In this document: positions 11,548-40,396 of the stretch, piece after piece
Numbering within the stretch: position 1 is the stretch's first letter
Layout: each line of letters opens with the position of its first letter
Source: Pseudomonadales bacterium
Lineage (GTDB): Bacteria; Pseudomonadota; Gammaproteobacteria; Pseudomonadales; Azotimanducaceae
NCBI GenBank assembly: GCA_022448085.1
Contig: JAKUTH010000001.1
Coordinates: forward strand, 1 to 44,845
DNA: 44,845 nucleotides
Direction: 5' to 3'
Translations under genes and position numbers: made by a program
The notes under the pieces: model-generated
The model's input: only the letters and a program-made list of their open reading frames with translations
Databases searched by the model: none
Told to the model about the DNA's origin: nothing

Positions 11548-13902
11548 TTAGAACAATCCCAACTGTCTGTCATCGCCGATCGCTCGGTCGAAGTCCAGAC
11601 CCATGACGTCCAGAACTGGTTCAGCTACAGGTCGTACTTGGCGCTGGACATAGTGTTCTCGGTCCAACTCGTGTTGAACGTTGTCCAACGGTTCCGGTCC
11701 CGCTGTCGTGACGACGTAGGAAACAACACGGCTCAGAGTTTTTGCTTTGCGGGCCGCAACAACATGAGGCGGGGTGATCGCGGTATATTCGTGCAAAGCT
11801 TTCCGCAAGCCCTTGCGATATACCAAGAGATTGTCCAGTTTTCCCAAGCGAAGATCTCTCACATAACCACGTAAGAAACCGACAACGGGGCCATCATCAA
11901 ATAATCGTAGATATAGTTCACGCTGTACGTTCTTGGCTAACTCAGTCCAATCGCGACGCACGACCTCCATGCCCACAAACTCCACACCGTCTTCCCCCTC
12001 AACGACCCCGGCGTAGCGCTTACGCGCTCCTGCCGACCCATGACGAATCAGGGGTAAAAATAGCCGTCGGTACAGTTTCTCGAACTCCAACTCGAGCCGA
12101 CTTTCTACCCGCCAGGCATCCTTAACATAACGCGCTAAGTCGGCGTTGATCGAGGCCGTCAGGTTGTAGACTTCGTCTTTGGCCTCTCGCGAATCGTCGA
12201 TGCCCGAGCGGACGAATACACTGTCCGTGTCTCCGTAGACCACGTCGAAACCTGCCTTCTCGAACCACGCCTTTGACCAGAGAAGGAAGTGGCGGCCGAG
12301 CCCCGTAATGCTGTTCGCAATATCGGGATTATGAAATCGGCACCCAGGCGTACCAAGTACCCCATAAAATGAATTCATGAGGATTTTGATGGCTTGCGAG
12401 GCCACCTCGTCTTTGTCCGTTTTAGCCTGTTCACGCGCCCGAAAGAGATCATCGAGGATCTTTGGAAGGATGGCTTCACCGCGATGAAAAGCCACACCGC
12501 TCGGTGTGCAGATGTCATCGTTATTTTCCGCTCCCGAGGCGACGTAAGTCAGCGGATCAATATTGAAGGTACGCATGAGGCTGGGATACAAACTCTTATA
12601 ATCAAGAACCCAAACGTTTTCGTGCATGCCGGTGACGGGCTCCAAGACGTGGCCCCCGCCTTGCGCCGATGATCTCCGAGCGTTCGGCGAATGAACAGCG
12701 GGCGCGCGGACGTGTTTTTCGGATAACGCAGCAAGGTAAACAAAGTCGAATGACGCGATGCTTGCAGCGACCCGGTCTAGAGACATGCCTGTTAGCTTGC
12801 TGCGCGCCACACTGAGATTAATCAGACCCAGTTTTTCAAGAATCTGGTACGCCAACCGCGCATCGGCCCTCGCGTACGCTGCGAAGCCGGCCAGATCGTG
12901 GTGATAGCGATCGAGAATTTCTTCGGCACGATTACCGACGTCGCCTTCGACCAGCTTGCCTTCACCAAGTACAGAACGCGCAACGGCGTCTAAGGAATAA
13001 TCATCCATGCGGATGTACGCGCCACGCAACAAGTCGATGCCGTCAAGCACCACACGGCCCGGTATCGTCGCCTGGTCGTTGCCGAAGCGTCCCTCCGCGA
13101 GCCGCAATCGCAGTGCACCGCCACCTCGGCCCATCTCAAAGGAACGGCCATGTCGCCTCGCAACCCCATCTAGGACCCGCAAGTCAAAACCGATAACGTT
13201 CCACCCGGTCAAAACATCGGGATCAAAGCTTCGAACCTTCTCGATGAAAGCGTCGAGAACAGCCGCCTCTGACGGAAAGCCGATGGCGTTTTCTGGCATG
13301 CTCGTGACTCCGTCGAGAGCAACGATATAGACCTCGTCAAGGGAATCCCCAAAAAGAGAAATCGCCAAAAGCTGAGAAGCCTCGGGATCCGTTTCAATAT
13401 CAAACGATAGAAGTTTCGGCGAGAACTCGACTGGGCCTGGCTCGACGACGGGGTCGTTGAATACCCAATCAATTCCCGCCTCCTTGGAATGCTGCGCCTC
13501 ACCCTGAATGACGCAACCACCACGCACGTTTCGATCGATCAAATATCGAGTCGCAAACGGCACGTCGGATTCGTAGGTCGCAACGCCAACGTCATGCAGT
13601 CGATCCCGGAGTGTCGGCACATCCGTTGGTAGTGCCACGTCAACGCGCGCAAGGGGTTCACCGCTAAACGATCGCGAGGTGGACTTGTGGAAACTAGTTG
13701 CACCAGCAGCCCGTGTTTTTTTCTCGTCTTTCCGATCTACGTAAAAATGCGGTCGCTCTCGCTGATCGCGGATGAGAAACGACTCACCGTTCGCGAGTTT
13801 TCCGTAGAGATGAACCACCGGAATCCGATTTTCCACCCGGTAACTTGCTTGGAGGATAAATCCTTCAGCACGCACGATATCGGCGTAGTCCGACAATCCC
13901 AA
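11548..13902 (-). CDS. polB: DNA polymerase II (family B)
   Basis: A 784-residue family B DNA polymerase, essentially the length of E. coli Pol II (783), used in damage tolerance and replication restart. Proofreading motifs are intact: Exo I FDIETD (167-172, Asp168/Glu170), Exo II NVIGFD (Asp240) and Exo III YARAD (343-347). Polymerase motifs are DYKSLYPS (434-441), KILMNSFYG (506-514) and YGDTDSVFV (556-564). The protein ends in QLGLF, the classic beta-clamp-binding peptide of Pol II. In other bacteria polB is LexA controlled; I did not identify a convincing SOS box in the 47 bases upstream. The upstream SDR gene is on the same strand but metabolically unrelated. Confidence 0.95.
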   Translation of the reverse strand: MGLSDYADIVRAEGFILQASYRVENRIPVVHLYGKLANGESFLIRDQRERPHFYVDRKDEKKTRAAGATSFHKSTSRSFSGEPLARVDVALPTDVPTLRDRLHDVGVATYESDVPFATRYLIDRNVRGGCVIQGEAQHSKEAGIDWVFNDPVVEPGPVEFSPKLLSFDIETDPEASQLLAISLFGDSLDEVYIVALDGVTSMPENAIGFPSEAAVLDAFIEKVRSFDPDVLTGWNVIGFDLRVLDGVARRHGRSFEMGRGGGALRLRLAEGRFGNDQATIPGRVVLDGIDLLRGAYIRMDDYSLDAVARSVLGEGKLVEGDVGNRAEEILDRYHHDLAGFAAYARADARLAYQILEKLGLINLSVARSKLTGMSLDRVAASIASFDFVYLAALSEKHVRAPAVHSPNARRSSAQGGGHVLEPVTGMHENVWVLDYKSLYPSLMRTFNIDPLTYVASGAENNDDICTPSGVAFHRGEAILPKILDDLFRAREQAKTDKDEVASQAIKILMNSFYGVLGTPGCRFHNPDIANSITGLGRHFLLWSKAWFEKAGFDVVYGDTDSVFVRSGIDDSREAKDEVYNLTASINADLARYVKDAWRVESRLELEFEKLYRRLFLPLIRHGSAGARKRYAGVVEGEDGVEFVGMEVVRRDWTELAKNVQRELYLRLFDDGPVVGFLRGYVRDLRLGKLDNLLVYRKGLRKALHEYTAITPPHVVAARKAKTLSRVVSYVVTTAGPEPLDNVQHELDREHYVQRQVRPVAEPVLDVMGLDFDRAIGDDRQLGLF

Positions 13903-30208: not shown

Positions 30209-31027
30209 ATGTCGACACACCTCAATAAAGCAGAAATCGAGGCCTTTCACCGGCGAGGGTATCACACACCGTTGCGCGTGCTATCGGCCAAAGAAGCCGT
30301 CGCCATACGGCAAAAACTTGAAGCGATTAATACCCAATTTGGACGGGCAGATGTGGCAAGCCCTCTCACCGACGCGCATCTAATTTATCGATGGGCATGG
30401 GATGTGATTCATGATCCCCGGATCGTTGACCCAGTTACCGACCTTCTCGGACCCGACGTGCTGCTTTGGTCGCTGAATTGGTTCATCAAAGAGCCCCTAG
30501 ACGGAACGTTTGTCACCTATCATCAAGATGCAACCTATTGGGGTCTTGAGCCTCATGACGTCGTGACCGCCTGGGTCGCGCTTTCGGACGCCGGGCGGAC
30601 TACCGGGCCCATGAAGTTTGTCCCCAAAAGCCATCGAGGCCCCGTGTGGGATCACACCGATACATTTGAGGATCAAAATCTGCTGTCTCGGGGCCAAGCG
30701 ATCGAACAAGATATTTCCGACGACGACACAGTTTTAGCACCCCTAAAAGTTGGTGAAATGTCGCTGCATCATGTACGCCTCATCCACGGTTCCGAACCCA
30801 ACCTCACCCATGATCGTCGGATTGGCATGGTATTGCGATACTGTGCTACTCGCGTCAAACAAACTAAATTACGTGACACTGCCGTGCTGGTACACGGCCT
30901 CGATGCCTACGATCATTTCGATCTATTGCCAGCACCCGAAATCGATGCGGGTGACGAAGAACGTCAACGCCAGAAAGATGCACTTCAACGGATGCAGCGC
31001 GCGCTGCACTCCAAAGATTACAAATAG
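30209..31027 (+). CDS. Phytanoyl-CoA dioxygenase (PhyH) family protein, first copy
   Basis: A 272-residue Fe(II)/2-oxoglutarate dioxygenase. The metal site is the HxD at His105/Asp107 (TYHQDATYW) plus a distal His193 in LIHGSEPN, and the Arg that binds 2-oxoglutarate is probably Arg204 in RRIG. The CAT-type SHRGPVWDHT segment carries the loop seen in many bacterial PhyH proteins. Members hydroxylate phytanoyl-CoA, quaternary amines or natural-product scaffolds, and the substrate here is unknown. It faces the second PhyH gene tail to tail with 30 bases between. The two differ strongly, so they are not recent duplicates. Confidence 0.87.
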   Translation: MSTHLNKAEIEAFHRRGYHTPLRVLSAKEAVAIRQKLEAINTQFGRADVASPLTDAHLIYRWAWDVIHDPRIVDPVTDLLGPDVLLWSLNWFIKEPLDGTFVTYHQDATYWGLEPHDVVTAWVALSDAGRTTGPMKFVPKSHRGPVWDHTDTFEDQNLLSRGQAIEQDISDDDTVLAPLKVGEMSLHHVRLIHGSEPNLTHDRRIGMVLRYCATRVKQTKLRDTAVLVHGLDAYDHFDLLPAPEIDAGDEERQRQKDALQRMQRALHSKDYK

Positions 31028-31057
31028 TCTGCGCCCGTTAGACGAGCGCCGCCGGTA

Positions 31058-31840
31058 CTAATCGGCCGATCTTAGAGCCCGTGCGACTTCTGTCTCGAAG
31101 TCAACACGGTATCCGTATTCGCGTTGACCGCTGGTGGCTTCGGTCCCCGAAACCCGGATCTGCTGCCAGCGCGCAGTAGTATGGCCCGCGGCTTTGTCGA
31201 CGTTAACAAAGTGAACTCCCACCCCTGCCCGGGCACTCGCGCTCGAATTGTCTCCTGTCGCGTGCGGTGTTCCGAAACAAAAAAAGGCAACGCCCCCTGC
31301 CTCCAGTTCACAGTTCAGGGCTCGAGTTTCGTCGATCTGGGTACGAATGTGGTGATTGGAATCGACGTCTCGAGTGTGCGGAAACATCTCTCGAAACACC
31401 CCAGGAATGACTCTCAGTGTCCCATTTTCAACGGTCGCGTCGTCAACGGCGATCCACATTGCGACACCGGCCATCGGATTGGTTAGATGAAAGTACGCAT
31501 TGTCCGTATGCCAATGGGTACCCATTCCTAGTTTTGCCGGTTTAAAGAACATTTGGTCGAGTATTTTCATGAGCGGATGGCCTATCAACGCGCCCACGCT
31601 CTCGATGACTTTGGGTGCGAATGGAAGTGCTCTAAACAATGTGCTTCGCTCGTGAAGCGGAATTAGCTGGAGGTTCTGACGCTTCTCGGGATCCGTTGAG
31701 ACATCCCGTGGCAAACCGCTCAACAGCCACCGGTCAACTTCCCTCCGGATTGCAGCAACCTCGTTTGGTTCGAAAAATCCATCAACGGTGGTATAACCAA
31801 GCTCTAGGAATTGCTGCACCTGGTCGGCGCTTACCTGCAT
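31058..31840 (-). CDS. Phytanoyl-CoA dioxygenase (PhyH) family protein, second copy
   Basis: A 260-residue 2-oxoglutarate dioxygenase. The HxD is His111/Asp113 in HWHTDNAYFH, distal His193 is in GTPHATGDN, and Arg204 is the 2-oxoglutarate candidate. The start at 31840 (MQVSADQVQQFLELGY) has a GGTGGG site upstream and gives the normal family N-terminus; the open frame runs 117 bases further but overlaps the divergent SDR start. The phrase AMWIAVDDATVENGTLRVIPG is typical of PhyH enzymes. It is divergent from an SDR by 51 bases and may share a regulated region with it. Substrate unknown. Confidence 0.85.
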   Translation of the reverse strand: MQVSADQVQQFLELGYTTVDGFFEPNEVAAIRREVDRWLLSGLPRDVSTDPEKRQNLQLIPLHERSTLFRALPFAPKVIESVGALIGHPLMKILDQMFFKPAKLGMGTHWHTDNAYFHLTNPMAGVAMWIAVDDATVENGTLRVIPGVFREMFPHTRDVDSNHHIRTQIDETRALNCELEAGGVAFFCFGTPHATGDNSSASARAGVGVHFVNVDKAAGHTTARWQQIRVSGTEATSGQREYGYRVDFETEVARALRSAD

Positions 31841-31891
31841 CGGGTATCCCACCCCAGCGATTCGGTTAGAGGATAAACCAAGGGGATAAAC

Positions 31892-32776
31892 ATGAGCGAA
31901 TTTGAAGGAAAGGTGGTCATCGTCACCGGGGCTGGAGGAGGTATCGGCCGCTGTCACGCAATCGAATTTGCTCAGCGCGGCGCGAAGGTAGTGGTCAACG
32001 ACCTAGGTGGCAATGTGGATGGAACAGGCGGCGGCGATGCGGCTGACCGAGTGGTCGCGGATATCGAGGCAATCGGAGGAACAGCCATAGCCAACAAAGC
32101 GTCGGTTTCTGATCGCGATGGCGCGAAATCCATCGTTGAAGATGCACTCAATGCGTATGGCCGTATCGATATTCTGGTAAATAACGCCGGCATCTTGCGA
32201 GACAAAACCTTCAAGAAGATGACTTTGGACGAATGGGACATAGTGGTAAACGTCCACCTCAACGGGTCTGCATACGTCACCCATGCCGCTTGGCCATACA
32301 TGTACGAGCAACGCTACGGCCGCGTCGTCTTCACTAGTTCCGGATCCGGCATTTTCGGCAACTTCGGACAGTCCAATTATGGCGCCGCTAAAATGGGTAT
32401 GCTTGGTCTTATGAACGTATTGGCGCTCGAGGGGGCTGCCCGAAACGTCCGTGTAAATTGTCTCGGTCCGGGCGCGGCGACACGGATGACTAATACGGTA
32501 CCAGGTCGTGACGAAGATCTTGGTGAGCCCGATCCTCTTCGCCACCCAGCTCTGGTAAGCCCGGCAGTTCTATTCATGTGTAGCGAAGACGCGCCAAACG
32601 GTGCCGTGATCCACGCATCCGGTGGTAACTACTCCCAGAGCCAGATTGTCGTCAACGAGCCTATCGCGCTCGGCCAAGGAACCACTTACGAAGACCTCGT
32701 CCCGCACATTAATAAGCTCATGGATATGTCAGCCGCCAAACCGAGGGAGCGCCGGCAACCGCGACCAAGGCAATAA
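31892..32776 (+). CDS. SDR, MFE-2/HSD17B4-like hydroxyacyl-CoA dehydrogenase type
   Basis: A 294-residue classical SDR. The cofactor loop TGAGGGIG (12-19) is followed by RGAKVVVNDLGGNVDG, which is the acidic, NAD-preferring strand-2 arrangement of multifunctional enzyme type 2 dehydrogenases. NNAG (97-100) and the catalytic Ser150, Tyr163 and Lys167 are in place. MFE-2-like SDRs oxidise 3-hydroxyacyl-CoAs in beta-oxidation. An AAGGGGATAAAC site precedes the ATG. The last 15 residues are Arg/Pro-rich and unconserved. Its divergence from a PhyH gene hints at a branched-chain acyl-CoA route (inference). Confidence 0.88.
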   Translation: MSEFEGKVVIVTGAGGGIGRCHAIEFAQRGAKVVVNDLGGNVDGTGGGDAADRVVADIEAIGGTAIANKASVSDRDGAKSIVEDALNAYGRIDILVNNAGILRDKTFKKMTLDEWDIVVNVHLNGSAYVTHAAWPYMYEQRYGRVVFTSSGSGIFGNFGQSNYGAAKMGMLGLMNVLALEGAARNVRVNCLGPGAATRMTNTVPGRDEDLGEPDPLRHPALVSPAVLFMCSEDAPNGAVIHASGGNYSQSQIVVNEPIALGQGTTYEDLVPHINKLMDMSAAKPRERRQPRPRQ

Positions 32777-33623: not shown

Positions 33624-33677
33624 AGAAACTCCATGACCCAGCGTGGTGGTAAAATGGCAGCACTTTCGCGGCGCGCG

Positions 33678-33687
33678 ATTATAGCAA
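33678..33687 (-). promoter_or_regulatory. Extended -10 promoter candidate for dsbA
   Basis: On the minus strand the sequence is TTGCTATAAT, a perfect TATAAT preceded by TG (extended -10). It lies about 55 bases before the dsbA ATG in the 81-base divergent region with engB. The -35 region is poor, as expected for this promoter type. Confidence 0.5.
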
Positions 33688-33704
33688 CCGGATTCGGGGA
33701 TCAC

Positions 33705-34313
33705 ATGCAGAAGACGCCGCACATTCAAGCGAGTTTCCTTACCAGCGCCGATTCGCTTGCGGGCTGCCCTGTTGACAACCTTCCAGAGGTCGCGTTTGCC
33801 GGACGATCGAACGCCGGAAAGTCGAGCACTCTGAATTGCCTCACCCACACTCGAAATCTTGCCCGCGTCAGTAAAACGCCCGGGCGCACCCAACTGATCA
33901 ACTTTTTCGCGACCAGCCTGGGCGGACGGCTCGTTGACTTACCCGGGTACGGTTACGCAAAAGTGAGCAAAGCCCGCCAGAAATCCTGGGGGGAGGCCGT
34001 CGACGACTATTTACAGCTGCGCGAAAACCTGAATGCGGTAGTGCTCGTTATGGATATTCGCCACCCCTTACAAATGTTCGATGTGCACATGATTGAGTGG
34101 GGAATCGCAACTGAAACGCCGCTACTCGTGCTACTTAATAAAGCAGACAAGTTAAAACAGGGGGCCCGAGTTGCCGCTTCGCGGCATGTCGATTCAGCAT
34201 TAGCCAACGCCACGAAAGCTTCGTCGGTCACATTTTCTGCGAAAACAGGGTTGGGGTCCGCCAAAGCGATCGAAGCCGTTAGCGGATTTCTGATGGATCC
34301 GCAACGCTTATAG
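33705..34313 (+). CDS. engB: Ribosome biogenesis GTP-binding protein EngB (YihA/YsxC)
   Basis: A 202-residue GTPase needed for 50S subunit assembly. G1 is GRSNAGKSS (33-41), the G2 region TPGRTQ (58-63), G3 DLPGYG (78-83), G4 NKAD (145-148) and G5 SAK (178-180). The start at 33705 has GGGGA four bases upstream; the longer frame is not supported by a ribosome site. It converges with polA with six bases between. The dsbA-engB-polA-thrB order is conserved with Pseudomonas. Confidence 0.95.
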
Positions 34314-34319
34314 TCTCCG

Positions 34320-37004
34320 TCAGTGAGCTTCATCCCAATTGATGCCAAACCCGGTATCAACGACCAAAGGTACATCGAGCGAGGCGGCATTAGTCATCGT
34401 TTCTTCCGCTAATGTAACGAGTTCCGCCACATCTTCCTCGGCAACCTCAAATACCAACTCGTCATGGACCTGCATAACCATCTTTGCCTTGAGAGGACTT
34501 TCTCTAAGGCGTCGGTCCAGAGCGAGCATGGCGCGCTTGATAATATCTGCCGCCGTGCCCTGCATGGGCGCGTTAATGGCCGTTCGCTCCGCCGCTTGTC
34601 TCCTCGGTACATTGCTCGCGTTGATTTCAGGAAGATACAACCGCCGGCCAAAAGCCGTTTCGACAAACCCATCTTCCGCCGCCCGGGATCTTATTTGGTC
34701 CATGTAGTCTCGGACGCTCGGGTAGCGTTCGAAATATCGGTCGATGTACTCCTGCGCGACGTTACGCGCGATGCCAAGTTGTCTACCTAAACCGAACGCG
34801 GACATGCCATAGATGAGCCCGAAGTTGATAGCTTTGGCACTGCGCCGTTGTGCGTCGTTAACCGCATCGACATCTTCCTTAAAAACTTCGGCTGCGGTGG
34901 CTCGATGCACATCAAGCCCTTGCGCAAAGGCAGAACAAAGGCCCACATCGCCTGAAAGATGCGCCATGATTCGCAATTCAATCTGGGAATAATCCGCAGC
35001 GACGAGTAGAAAGCCCTCCGGTGCCACAAAGGCTTGGCGAATTTTCCGGCCATCTGCGGTACGTATGGGTATGTTCTGTAAATTAGGGTCCGATGACGAA
35101 AGTCGTCCCGTTGCAGTAACCGCCTGATGATATGAAGTATGTACGCGTCCGGTGCACGTATTAATTTGTCCGGGGAGCGCGTCCGTATACGTTGATTTTA
35201 GCTTTGAGACTGAGCGGTAATCGAGGATAACTTGCGGTAATTCAAATTCCTGAGCGAGTTCTTGCAATACCGGTTCAGCCGTCGAACGTTGCCCTTTTTG
35301 CGTTTTACGTAAAGACGGAAGGGATAATTTGTCGTAAAGAATCTCTTGTAATTGCTTGGGCGAACCTAAGTTAAATTCTTCGCCCGCGAGTTCGAATGCC
35401 TTTGCTTGAAGCAAGACCATCCGGCGAGATAGCTCGTTGCTTTGTTCCGCCAACATTGCAGCGTCAATTAACGTGCCCGCCCGTTCCATTTCTGAAAGAA
35501 CCACCAACAGAGGTAACTCAAGCTCCTCGTACACCGGTAGCAACGACGGCTGCGCTTCGAGCTGCGGTCGGAGGACCTGATTGAGCCGCAGCACAGCATC
35601 TGCGCGTTGCGCCGCGAATTGACACGCTGCTTCAATCCCAACCGCGGACCAGGGAGCTCGTTTGACTCCCTTTCCTACGACGGCATCGAGCGGCGTAAGC
35701 AGCATGTCCGAATATTTCGCTGTCAGGTCCTCGAGCTTATGTCCGCGCGAGCCAACACTGTCGAAAACGTACGACTCAAGCATAGTGTCATTCGCCAGGC
35801 CTCGAAGCACGACGTTATATTGCGCAAGTACATTGCGTTGGAACTTTAAGTCGTGGCCCGTCTTCGTTAATCGATCGTCCTCGAGAACTGGGCCGAGCTG
35901 CGCTAACACAGCGTCTCGGCCTAATTGTTTCTGCAACTGATGGCCGATCGGAACGTACGCGCCTTCTCCACATCGCGTCGCGATCGCTATACCAATGATT
36001 TCCCCAGTCATGTAGTCACTTGACCCAGTCACGATTTCGAGCGCAAAGCCTAGTGCCTCGTTAATCTCGTCAACAAGCCCATTCAAGCCTTCTGCCGTAT
36101 CGATTATTCGATAGTCACCTGATGCGATCGTTATTTGCTCCGTTTCTAATGCCCCGTCCAACTCGGCTAACCATGATTTGAATTCGAACCGCTTAAACAA
36201 ATCCCGGAGCGCCTCCGTGTCTGCAACGGCCCAATTGAGATCATCGAGCTCCGTTTCGAGAACGACATCACACTTGATTGTCGCCAACGTGCGAGAAAGC
36301 GGCAGTTGCTCAAGATTATCCCGGAGGCTTTCCCCCACTTTGCCCTTTATTACAGAGGCATTGGCAATCACGCCGTCAAGGTCTCCGTAGCTATCCAACC
36401 ATTTTGCCGCCGTCTTGGGCCCCACCTTCGGCACCCCGGGGATGTTGTCCGAGGTGTCCCCCATCAGCGCGAGGTAGTCAATGATTTGTTCCGGCCATAC
36501 TCCAAATCGCTCCCTGACACCATCACGCCCCAGATTCGTGTCTGTCATGGTATTAACAAGAGACACGTGTTCATTGACGAGCTGGGCCATGTCCTTATCG
36601 GAGGTTGAAATAATAGTCGGCTGCTCAGCCTGAGTTGCACGAGCAGCCAGCGTTCCGATTACGTCATCGGCTTCGACCCCAGGACATATAAGCAGTGGAA
36701 GCCCCATCGCCCGGATAACGTCGTGAATGGGTCCAATCTGCTCGCGTAAATCGTCTGGCATGGGCGGACGATTGGCCTTGTATTCTGGAAAAAGTTCGTT
36801 ACGAAAGGTTTTGCCACCCGCATCGAAAACGACCGCAATGGGGCTGCCCACAAAATCGCTACTCAGCTTACGTAGCATCGCAATGACACCACGAACGGCG
36901 CCCGTCGGAGCCCCGGCGCTGGTGCGCAGATCGGGAAGTGCATGGTAGGCCCTAAACAGGTAGGAAGAACCATCGACGAGCAGTAACGGTTTGGCGTTTG
37001 CCAT
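34320..37004 (-). CDS. polA: DNA polymerase I, proofreading site replaced
   Basis: An 894-residue Pol I. The 5' nuclease has LLVDGSSYLFRAYHA (8-22), GVEADDVIG (109-117), TSDKDM and GDTSDNIPGVPKVG (182-195). The polymerase has motif A ADYSQIELR (670-678), motif B RRSAKAINFGLIYG (720-733) and motif C QVHDELVFEV (845-854). The 3'-5' exonuclease domain (about 298-483) is present but its catalytic residues are not: E. coli Asp355/Glu357 align with Glu323/Val325, Asp424 with Gln389 and Asp501 with Arg467. The enzyme should keep gap filling and flap cleavage but not proofreading. The start at 37004 has GGGGGAA upstream. Confidence 0.97.
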   Translation of the reverse strand: MANAKPLLLVDGSSYLFRAYHALPDLRTSAGAPTGAVRGVIAMLRKLSSDFVGSPIAVVFDAGGKTFRNELFPEYKANRPPMPDDLREQIGPIHDVIRAMGLPLLICPGVEADDVIGTLAARATQAEQPTIISTSDKDMAQLVNEHVSLVNTMTDTNLGRDGVRERFGVWPEQIIDYLALMGDTSDNIPGVPKVGPKTAAKWLDSYGDLDGVIANASVIKGKVGESLRDNLEQLPLSRTLATIKCDVVLETELDDLNWAVADTEALRDLFKRFEFKSWLAELDGALETEQITIASGDYRIIDTAEGLNGLVDEINEALGFALEIVTGSSDYMTGEIIGIAIATRCGEGAYVPIGHQLQKQLGRDAVLAQLGPVLEDDRLTKTGHDLKFQRNVLAQYNVVLRGLANDTMLESYVFDSVGSRGHKLEDLTAKYSDMLLTPLDAVVGKGVKRAPWSAVGIEAACQFAAQRADAVLRLNQVLRPQLEAQPSLLPVYEELELPLLVVLSEMERAGTLIDAAMLAEQSNELSRRMVLLQAKAFELAGEEFNLGSPKQLQEILYDKLSLPSLRKTQKGQRSTAEPVLQELAQEFELPQVILDYRSVSKLKSTYTDALPGQINTCTGRVHTSYHQAVTATGRLSSSDPNLQNIPIRTADGRKIRQAFVAPEGFLLVAADYSQIELRIMAHLSGDVGLCSAFAQGLDVHRATAAEVFKEDVDAVNDAQRRSAKAINFGLIYGMSAFGLGRQLGIARNVAQEYIDRYFERYPSVRDYMDQIRSRAAEDGFVETAFGRRLYLPEINASNVPRRQAAERTAINAPMQGTAADIIKRAMLALDRRLRESPLKAKMVMQVHDELVFEVAEEDVAELVTLAEETMTNAASLDVPLVVDTGFGINWDEAH

Positions 37005-38166: not shown

Positions 38167-39144
38167 TTAGGTCGCCTTAAGCAGCAACTCCATGAATTGG
38201 TGATCGGCGTCAAACCACGTCAAGTGTTGGCGAAAGCCCGTCGCATCTGCCAATGCCACGAATTCATCAAGGCTATACTTATACGAATTCTCCGTATGCA
38301 TGCGCTCGCCCGGGGCAAAGCGAAATGTCTCTCCTTCCAGGCGGACGTCCTGTTCACACTTGCTTACTAGGTACATCTCGATTCGGCCTTTCGACGGGTT
38401 ATACCGGGCGAAATGCTCAAACGCCCGGGCATCAAAGTCGGTGCCGAATCGTTCATTTAGATGTCGAAGCATGTTTCGATTGAACTCGGCGGTCACGCCT
38501 CCAGAGTCGTTATAGGCTCGATTCAGAACGGATTCAGATTTCTTGGTGTCAACGCCGATTAGGAACCAGCCCTCATTGCCAACAACGTCTCGAACTCCTT
38601 CCATAAACATCGCCGCATCCGCTGGCTCAAAATTTCCGAGGCTGGATCCCGGGAAAAAGGCAACTCGCGTCAATCCATCGACGCTTGACGGAAGGCCAAA
38701 TGGGGTGGAGTAATCGGCACAGGTCGGGTACACGTGTAACCAAGGATAATCGTCGGCAATTCGGTGCGACGAATGCAAGAGATACTCACTCGAAATATCC
38801 ACCGGGACGTACGCTCTGGGGCGACATGACTCTAATAGGACACGGATCTTTGTACTGCTTCCGCTTCCATATTCAATCAGACAAACACTAGAGCCGATGG
38901 CGTCGGCTATTGCGGTCCCATGCGTATGCAAAATTGAAAGCTCTGCGCGTGTTAGGTAGTACTCGGGCAGCTCGGTAATCGCCTCAAATAAATTTGAACC
39001 GCGCTGGTCGTAAAAGAATTTGGGCGAGAGCTTCTTCGGGTCGGTTCGCAGTCCTCTTTTGATCTCCAACTGCGCATCAGCCAGAAGAGGTTTTTGATCA
39101 TGCAGTTCGATCTCGTCCGCTAATCGATTAGAGCTTCGCGCCAT
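38167..39144 (-). CDS. egtD: L-histidine N(alpha)-methyltransferase EgtD
   Basis: A 325-residue SAM-dependent methyltransferase that trimethylates histidine to hercynine, the first step of ergothioneine synthesis. Features are SPKFFYDQRGSNLFEAITELPEYYLTR in pieces around 40-66, the SAM loop LIEYGSGSSTKIR, VPVDISSEYL and FFPGSSLGNFEP. The tail has NSYKYSLDEFVALADATGF. Its start lies inside the 3' end of egtB with a 17-base overlap, so the pair is translationally coupled. Convergent with thrB. It acts in the cytoplasm, where ergothioneine serves as an antioxidant thiol. Confidence 0.95.
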   Translation of the reverse strand: MARSSNRLADEIELHDQKPLLADAQLEIKRGLRTDPKKLSPKFFYDQRGSNLFEAITELPEYYLTRAELSILHTHGTAIADAIGSSVCLIEYGSGSSTKIRVLLESCRPRAYVPVDISSEYLLHSSHRIADDYPWLHVYPTCADYSTPFGLPSSVDGLTRVAFFPGSSLGNFEPADAAMFMEGVRDVVGNEGWFLIGVDTKKSESVLNRAYNDSGGVTAEFNRNMLRHLNERFGTDFDARAFEHFARYNPSKGRIEMYLVSKCEQDVRLEGETFRFAPGERMHTENSYKYSLDEFVALADATGFRQHLTWFDADHQFMELLLKAT

Positions 39145-40396
39145 TTCTCACTAGCCTAATACCGGTAAACTGCCATCGATCTTTGGCATAGAAAAAGTTT
39201 CGGTAGGTATTGCGAACATGACCTCCCGGCGACCCGCAAGAGCCCCCACGCAGTACCATCTGGTTAGCCATGAATTTGCCGTTGTACTCACCAAGGGTAC
39301 CCGACAGCGGCCGGAATCCGGGATAGGGCGCGTAACTCGACGCCGTCCACTGCCAACATTCATCGAGTAATTGCTGCACGCCATTCCCCGTCGCGGCCCG
39401 CGGGTGGAAAAACGGCGTTTTCGTCGATTCCACTTCATTCGTAGCTTGTTTGGCCACATGTTCCCACTCGAATTCCGTTGCAAGCCGGGCGCCCGACCAG
39501 CGCGCAAAGGCATCCGCTTCATAAAAGCTAATGTGGGTAACCGGGAACGTGGGGTGTAACTCGGATTCACCGGCCAACGTGTATTCGTACCAGGTCGAAT
39601 CGCGCTGGGTCCAGTATTCTGGAGCTTGCCAGGCGAGCTCGCTCGCCTCTCGCCAACCATCGGACAACCACAACGATGGTGTTCGATAACCGCCATCCTC
39701 AATGAATGCTAGATATTCCTGGTTCGTTACCAAGCGTTCGGCGAACTCGAAATCTTCCAACCACACACGATGCCTCGGCGTTTCGTTGTCAAAACAGAAC
39801 GGCTCGTTTGATTCAGCCCCGACCATCACCAATCCACCGGTTATGGGCACATACGACTGCGGGCGGCTCGGCGCGAAATTATCGTCAGCTCCAGGCTGAT
39901 AGGCCGGGCGTAACGGGTTATGACCCAGAATAAACTTCAAGTCGGTAACGATTAATTCTTGATGTTGTTGTTCGTGATTTAGACCCAGCATCGTTCGTGA
40001 TGCTACGGGGTCGTTCGTCCCCTGTCCCGAATCGAGCAGCATGGTCATGGCAACATCAACATAACGTCGGTAATTGTGTATTTCGTCAAGGGTTGGCCGC
40101 GACAAATTGCCCCTTTCAGCCCGCGGATGCCTCGAACCAACGCCTTCATAATACGAATTGAATAGCTCGGAGTATTGTTCGTCGAAGACTCGATAGTCGG
40201 CGAGATAGGGCCTCAGCAAGAATGTTTCAAAAAACCACGTCGTATGTGCGAGGTGCCATTTGGGCGGACTAACGTCGGCGATCGGCTGGACGCCATGGTC
40301 ATCAACGGAAAGCGGTCGACAAAGATCCTCCGTTTTCGATCTTACATATCGGTACGCATTGCTGAGTACCGCCACTCGTGGCGCAGCCGCTGACAT
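39128..40396 (-). CDS. egtB: Ergothioneine sulfoxide synthase EgtB
   Basis: A 422-residue non-heme iron enzyme that joins hercynine with cysteine or gamma-glutamylcysteine using oxygen. The N-terminal DinB-like domain supplies the three-histidine iron site: His51 in WHLAHTTWFFE and His141/His145 in NHEQQHQEL. The C-terminal formylglycine-generating-like domain has GGLVMVGAE, PVTHISFYEADAFARWSGARL, DECWQWTASSY and VLRGGSCGS. GGGGG six bases upstream fixes the start. egtD follows in a 17-base overlap. No egtC or egtE is in the window, so later steps are encoded elsewhere or differ. Confidence 0.95.
   Translation of the reverse strand: MSAAAPRVAVLSNAYRYVRSKTEDLCRPLSVDDHGVQPIADVSPPKWHLAHTTWFFETFLLRPYLADYRVFDEQYSELFNSYYEGVGSRHPRAERGNLSRPTLDEIHNYRRYVDVAMTMLLDSGQGTNDPVASRTMLGLNHEQQHQELIVTDLKFILGHNPLRPAYQPGADDNFAPSRPQSYVPITGGLVMVGAESNEPFCFDNETPRHRVWLEDFEFAERLVTNQEYLAFIEDGGYRTPSLWLSDGWREASELAWQAPEYWTQRDSTWYEYTLAGESELHPTFPVTHISFYEADAFARWSGARLATEFEWEHVAKQATNEVESTKTPFFHPRAATGNGVQQLLDECWQWTASSYAPYPGFRPLSGTLGEYNGKFMANQMVLRGGSCGSPGGHVRNTYRNFFYAKDRWQFTGIRLVRNGAKL

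Follow-up and report, generated by a model that had tools for sequence, protein, structure and literature searches.

Organization of the polA locus

The window analysed here is a 44,845-nucleotide stretch from a Pseudomonadales bacterium (GCA_022448085.1, contig JAKUTH010000001.1, positions 1–44,845), and this study concerns its polA gene, which encodes DNA polymerase I (Pol I). The gene and its features, in window coordinates and with the number of amino acids (aa) of the product, are as follows.

34320–37004, minus strand: polA, DNA polymerase I, 894 aa, ATG start (MANAKP...), stop codon included (Pfam and NCBIfam)
36216–36986, minus strand: 5′–3′ nuclease domain (PF02739 and PF01367), intact (Pfam)
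35556–36113, minus strand: 3′–5′ exonuclease domain (PF01612), predicted fold kept and catalytic residues lost (Pfam, alignment, AlphaFold2)
36030–36038, minus strand: Exo I, with E323 for D355 and V325 for E357 (alignments)
35838–35840, minus strand: Exo II, with Q389 for D424 (alignments)
35604–35618, minus strand: Exo III, with F463 for Y497 and R467 for D501 (alignments)
34329–35459, minus strand: polymerase domain (PF00476), intact (Pfam)

A GTG codon 47 codons upstream offers an alternative start that would give a protein of 941 aa. PolA scores 1144.3 bits against NCBIfam NF004397 (cut-off 720) and contains the Pfam domains 5_3_exonuc_N, 5_3_exonuc, DNA_pol_A_exo1 (61.5 bits, cut-off 23.6), DNA_polI_exo1 and DNA_pol_A. 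Its 5′–3′ nuclease, exonuclease-like and polymerase domains lie in a single chain (Pfam, NCBIfam), and the protein is an orthologous DNA polymerase I of the PolA1 type. The nearest named records are PolA of Gammaproteobacteria bacterium UBA1119 (97% identical), of an uncultured gammaproteobacterium metagenome-assembled genome (MAG; 95%) and of Pseudomonadales bacterium ALOHA_A2.5_103 (82%), the title of the last suggesting that the host lineage is probably of marine origin.

The window holds one DNA polymerase I only, and no second full-length polA match was found in the source genome (2.66 Mb, 137 contigs, 94.6% complete). An intact second polA elsewhere in the genome was considered and rejected, since the sole extra match is a standalone 5′ nuclease (L002, G000:C70:7090–7917) that is paralogous to the N-terminal domain of Pol I and 38% identical to it. 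A second match of this standalone type occurs in five of the seven genomes of the genus.

Both flanking domains are intact, as a reading of the window from its letters and open reading frames (hereafter the sequence-only reading) had claimed. The polymerase domain keeps 172 of 175 highly conserved columns and the 5′-nuclease domain 84 of 86, a highly conserved column being one at least 90% conserved in 240 PolA sequences with an intact exonuclease site (exo-intact). Polymerase motifs A (DYSQIELR), B (RRSAKAINFGLIYG) and C (QVHDE), which make up the active site, are identical to those of Klenow in a phmmer alignment, and the acidic motifs of the 5′ nuclease are present on reading of the protein sequence; the motif names and metal-ligand positions in these two domains are those that we take to be standard. 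The exonuclease domain keeps 32 of its 58 highly conserved columns. The damage is thus concentrated in a single domain, the exonuclease.

The exonuclease site has lost its catalytic residues

The sequence-only reading had described an exonuclease domain of retained length between 35604 and 36050 in which D355, E357, D424 and D501 of Escherichia coli Pol I are replaced by E, V, Q and R, and Y497 by F. This description is borne out. The phmmer alignments with Klenow chains and a MAFFT alignment with E. coli PolA (from NC_000913.3) agree on E323, V325, Q389, F463 and R467 (window-protein numbering) at the five positions, the codons of which run from 36038 down to 35604, so that none of the five catalytic DEDDy residues is kept. 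Comparison with Klenow and with related Pol I proteins, which the sequence-only reading had proposed as a check, restored none of the four catalytic acids at the metal sites. The residues T358, G418, K422, A498, A499 and D503, which flank the motifs, are retained. A register shift that would restore the acids was rejected because the motif anchors align without gaps, and a sequencing error or chance was rejected because the same EVQFR letters recur in five species.

The protein therefore does not have the residues of a catalytically active DEDDy 3′–5′ exonuclease, and it belongs with the exo-inactive PolA1 enzymes of the Helicobacter pylori type, in which the metal ligands are replaced and the domain is kept. 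H. pylori Pol I (HP1470), which lacks the equivalents of D355, D424 and D501, was purified and showed no 3′–5′ exonuclease activity or mismatch removal where Klenow was active (PMC3121766). Because all four metal ligands are replaced in the window Pol I, and because the H. pylori enzyme without three of the same four is exonuclease-negative, a loss of 3′–5′ exonuclease catalysis in the window Pol I is strongly supported by alignment and analogy.

The exonuclease domain is predicted to fold and remains under selection

An AlphaFold2 model computed from 45 sequences (the window PolA and 44 related loci) has a mean predicted local distance difference test score (pLDDT) of 89.6; when the exonuclease region is divided into 19 blocks of ten residues, 13 of them reach at least 90. 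The replaced sites lie on a strand (319–326) and two helices (386–394 and 457–483) of the model. The top Foldseek match is a Klenow chain, and the Pol I chain 8oo6 superimposes with a root-mean-square deviation of 2.2 over 604 columns and a template modelling score of 0.95 by target length. Together with the PF01612 match, these comparisons place the domain in the RNase H-like group as a predicted fold, and it is predicted to fold normally.

Within the genus, the ratio of non-synonymous to synonymous substitution rates (dN/dS) is 0.19–0.36 for the exonuclease domain versus 0.054–0.076 for the polymerase domain (10 pairs, five species). The exonuclease domain of the window Pol I thus evolves about three times faster than its polymerase domain, while purifying selection persists. 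In six genera that have lost the site (exo-less), the median ratio of exonuclease to polymerase amino-acid divergence is 2.02, and in 31 exo-intact genera it is 1.42 (p 0.001 by a Mann-Whitney test without correction for kinship among genera); the corresponding ratio for the 5′ nuclease is alike in the two groups (p 0.16). The dN/dS and divergence-ratio results show that constraint on the exonuclease domain has dropped where the site was lost, yet not to zero.

The loss predates the genus and recurs across the order

The site was read in 310 rows, including E. coli and the window, two of which have an unread site (L284, with an X, and L316, which is short). The rows removed beforehand were six identical ones, the standalone nucleases, the window's own copy L001, and L147, the E. 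coli locus, which is represented by the row ECOLI. The site was scored as lost when at most two of the four carboxylates are kept. Genera and families are given below by our own handles, g1 being the genus of the window.

The EVQFR letters are common to five of the six g1 genomes with PolA, and the sixth (G002) reads SIVFN and is 59% identical in PolA. That genome (locus L007) is assigned to g1, but in PolA it stands no nearer to the window than other genera do; the genus seems to be drawn broadly, or this genome to be wrongly assigned.

In the clade formed by g1, g7 and g37, D355, D424 and D501 are absent in all 27 members and E357 is kept in 12. On the PolA tree, where the clade has a Shimodaira–Hasegawa-like approximate likelihood ratio test (SH-aLRT) support of 98, 26 of 26 rows are exo-less; the additional member is a further g1 species added outside the tree. 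Since the three aspartates are absent in 27 of 27, the residue pattern places the loss before the genus, as an inheritance from the ancestor of the three genera; how far up the species tree the loss extends had been listed for checking by the sequence-only reading.

Among 150 sequences read in family f1, 90 keep the four carboxylates and 60 do not, the latter including one that keeps three and one that ends before the site. The loss is nearly all-or-none by genus: it is complete in g1 (6/6), g7 (7/7), g37 (14/14), g8 (16/16) and g15 (7/7) and absent from g22 (0/16), g23 (0/10) and g25 (0/8), with g33 (1/9) and g2 (1/4 readable) as exceptions. The exo-less g33 species (L229, G221; HEAYH) stands alone in a genus in which the other eight of nine keep the site, and would make a good matched pair. 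In L021 (G010), three of the four carboxylates are present and D501 is replaced by V, which looks like a site early in loss. Exo-less rows also occur outside f1, in f6 (3/3), f7 (2/2), f44 (2/2) and f36 (1/2).

The PolA tree was built without the exonuclease columns from 226 rows and E. coli, leaving out the short row L222, and is a tree of the PolA gene, not of species. Its 64 exo-less rows require 13 losses across the order, 10 of them in f1; an earlier tree of 217 rows needed 12 changes. On supported branches alone the number of losses falls to nine, with nine independent pairs that differ in exonuclease state. A class-level draw of 65 genomes (three without a match; the window genome and G099 already counted as exo-less) gave 60 new sequences, of which 53 keep all four carboxylates, five do not and two are unreadable (L387 and L390). 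The statement of the sequence-only reading that gammaproteobacterial Pol I normally keeps its exonuclease thus holds as a rule. It made the loss seem more exceptional than it is, given the repeated losses in the sampled order and the loss in roughly half of the Pol I proteins of a bacterial survey discussed below. As a separate observation, contigs C5 and C22 of the draft genome G227 carry two equal-scoring full-length polA copies, by duplication or contamination.

Pol II and the other polymerases of the cell

A second DNA polymerase gene lies in the window.

11548–13902, minus strand: polB, DNA polymerase II (Pol II), 784-aa reading frame with a putative TTG start (NF004421, 716.6 bits, cut-off 570)

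Aligned with 1q8i, the Pol II of E. coli, the protein has intact 3′–5′ exonuclease motifs (D-I-E, N...FD and Y...D), which makes it a candidate compensating proofreader. DnaQ is found above its curated cut-off with DTE, HNxxFD and HxxxxD in place, which we take to be its DEDDh motif, and the genome has one DnaE match. No Y-family polymerase was matched in the five of five genus members searched (draft genomes, E-value cut 1e-10). One DnaE, an intact DnaQ and a Pol II with intact exonuclease motifs suggest that bulk replication is probably still edited and that Pol I patches alone are unedited.

In the 226-row tree set, PolB is present in 56 of 64 exo-less rows versus 76 of 162 others. A Fisher test that compares PolB presence in the lost rows (56/64) with that in the fully intact rows (75/162) gives p 5.6e-9, uncorrected for kinship. 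The Fisher tests leave out L021, and the contingency omits three genomes without a PolB search as well as L284 and L316. Outside f1 alone, PolB is found in 6/8 exo-less versus 28/73 rows (p 0.06). Simulation of irreversible loss on the PolA tree, with L021 scored as kept and runs accepted at 60–140% of the observed lost-row count, gives a one-sided P of 0.0043 for the PolB excess and of 0.031 inside f1. The excess holds up when five long rows (P 0.0025), g8 (0.007) or the clade of the window (0.0185) are left out. In f1 genomes of at least 3 Mb (rounded sizes), PolB occurs in 36/36 exo-less versus 46/74 others, and in those below 3 Mb in 14/20 versus 2/16. Small genomes were therefore rejected as the cause of the link. 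The independent-pairs tests were not significant: among the nine pairs differing in exonuclease state on supported branches, PolB went the same way in 2.9 and the other way in 1.3, and among 22 pairs differing in PolB, the exonuclease went the same way in 2.3 and the other way in 0.3. Eight exo-less genomes are without a PolB match, an absence that is uncertain in draft genomes. These results are suggestive of an evolutionary tie between the loss of the Pol I exonuclease and the presence of Pol II.

Neighbouring genes

Three further features of the window surround polA.

33633–34313: ribosome-binding-type GTPase gene (PF01926), adjoining polA
38167–40396, minus strand: gene for a histidine-specific methyltransferase (PF10017), next to one for a DinB_2/FGE-sulfatase protein
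30209–31957: two adjacent PhyH-type dioxygenase genes in opposite orientation

The first is probably the YihA/EngB gene, named by inference, which is near polA in E. coli too. The methyltransferase and its neighbour resemble what we take to be the ergothioneine pair EgtD/EgtB.

Discussion

We consider it very probable that the Pol I of this lineage makes DNA and removes primers but cannot proofread, that its exonuclease domain is kept as structural support, and that the loss is ancestral to the three genera. The two-metal 3′–5′ site would be gone and the domain would stay as a scaffold. Okazaki and repair gaps, which are short, would then be filled by Pol I without editing, and such patches may be tolerable with a bulk replicase that keeps its editor, the intact DnaQ. 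Some mispaired ends could pass to Pol II with its intact exonuclease. The enzyme may also double as a polymerase that extends mismatches or tolerates lesions, as the H. pylori enzyme does, a role made conceivable by the single DnaE and by the absence of Y-family matches in the genomes searched.

Four points weigh against this account or parts of it. E323 could in principle hold a metal weakly in the place of D355; some exo-intact genera also have a high exonuclease-to-polymerase divergence ratio (g51, 3.88; g78, 2.40); the evidence for absent Y-family genes comes from draft genomes searched at an E-value cut that can miss ImuB; and the enrichment of exo-inactive enzymes in anaerobes, reported in a 2026 survey (PMC12926913), gives no reason why a lineage that is probably marine and aerobic should have lost the activity.

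The closest assayed counterpart is the H. pylori enzyme. According to its published study (PMC3121766), it has, like the window Pol I, three full domains and an exonuclease domain of retained shape without the D355, D424 and D501 equivalents, and its genome is likewise one in which no Y-family polymerase was found. It extends mismatched primers and carries out mutagenic lesion bypass, and by analogy the same behaviour should be expected of the window Pol I. H. pylori is described there with Pol I and Pol III only, whereas the genome of the window adds a Pol II with intact exonuclease motifs. The H. pylori Pol I was assayed, whereas the loss of activity in the window Pol I is predicted from sequence. 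E. coli Pol I shares with the window PolA the 5′ nuclease and polymerase domains and the exonuclease fold, but in the window protein the four metal ligands and the exonuclease tyrosine are replaced.

The 2026 survey (PMC12926913), which covered more than 3000 bacterial genomes, finds the DEDDy motif substituted in about half of PolA1 enzymes. The substitutions are unrelated to genome size, follow phylum for the most part and are enriched in anaerobes. The exo-inactive PolA1 group of the survey shares domain order and substituted motif with the window PolA, but the losses here are spread over genera within a single gammaproteobacterial order. The PolA2/APEX proteins of Actinobacteria described there also have an inactive exonuclease domain but lack the 5′ nuclease domain that the window PolA has, which sets the latter outside that group. 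A preprint on reverse transcription by Pol I (PMC12776460) relates lost proofreading to RNA-templated synthesis as a correlation that is not absolute. Among the papers listed in literature searches, which did not extend to supplements or to most subscription journals, none described repeated loss of this kind in Gammaproteobacteria or connected it with Pol II. Exo-inactive Pol I is thus a kind already known; the dense separate losses within one order and the possible tie to Pol II may be new.

Why the activity was lost can be explained in several ways. A Pol II with a working exonuclease could permit the loss, so that the two traits are linked in evolution; we give this somewhat less than an even chance. 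The raw contrast, the simulations with their removals and the excess in both size classes of f1 argue for it, but the pairs tests, the eight exo-less genomes without PolB, the uncertainty of gene absence in drafts, the use of a gene tree and the marginal contrast outside f1 argue against it. Alternatively, Pol I proofreading may be dispensable, with losses piling up by neutral decay and no linked trait. This is quite possible, although we lean against it: the frequency of exo-inactive enzymes in the survey (PMC12926913), the many different residue sets and the faster rates of the dead domain fit such decay, whereas the PolB excess in simulation and the retention of the site in most sampled families do not. 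A more specific version of the Pol II hypothesis, in which proofreading was lost repeatedly, mainly in lineages already holding Pol II, and Pol II is the stand-in editor of Pol I gaps, we regard as rather unlikely but worth stating. The suggestion of the sequence-only reading that Pol II offsets the loss stands as regards the intact Pol II motifs and the tendency of exo-less Pol I to co-occur with Pol II; Pol II may also edit Pol I gaps, although the pairs tests for the link did not reach significance.

An adaptive loss, in which exo-less Pol I does the work of translesion polymerases that the cell lacks, a proposal made for H. pylori (PMC3121766), seems improbable. Strong Y-family matches are absent from g1 (0/5) and g8 (0/16), but the exo-less g37 (13/14) and g7 (5/7) carry Y-family genes, as do all eight exo-less genomes outside f1, and the simulated association with Y-family absence (P 0.053 in f1, 0.10 overall) is weaker than that with Pol II. 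That acids from shifted positions rebuild the metal site and leave some exonuclease activity is highly improbable: D386 and D469 lie close in sequence to the former sites of Exo II and Exo III, but the anchors align gap-free as noted above, D469 is the equivalent of D503, which is conserved in 96% of exo-intact enzymes, and the members of the exo-less clade share no common replacement acid.

Proofreading by Pol I is a textbook activity, and many bacteria are without it, for causes that the 2026 survey (PMC12926913) leaves open. Family f1, in which the best tree places ten losses beside close exo-intact relatives, including the single species in g33, offers matched pairs in which to study both the cause and the mutational cost. 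If the link to Pol II is true, it would give Pol II a concrete job in normal growth, and if Pol II does stand in as the editor of Pol I gaps, the order would amount to a set of natural replicate experiments on which polymerase edits Okazaki and repair patches.
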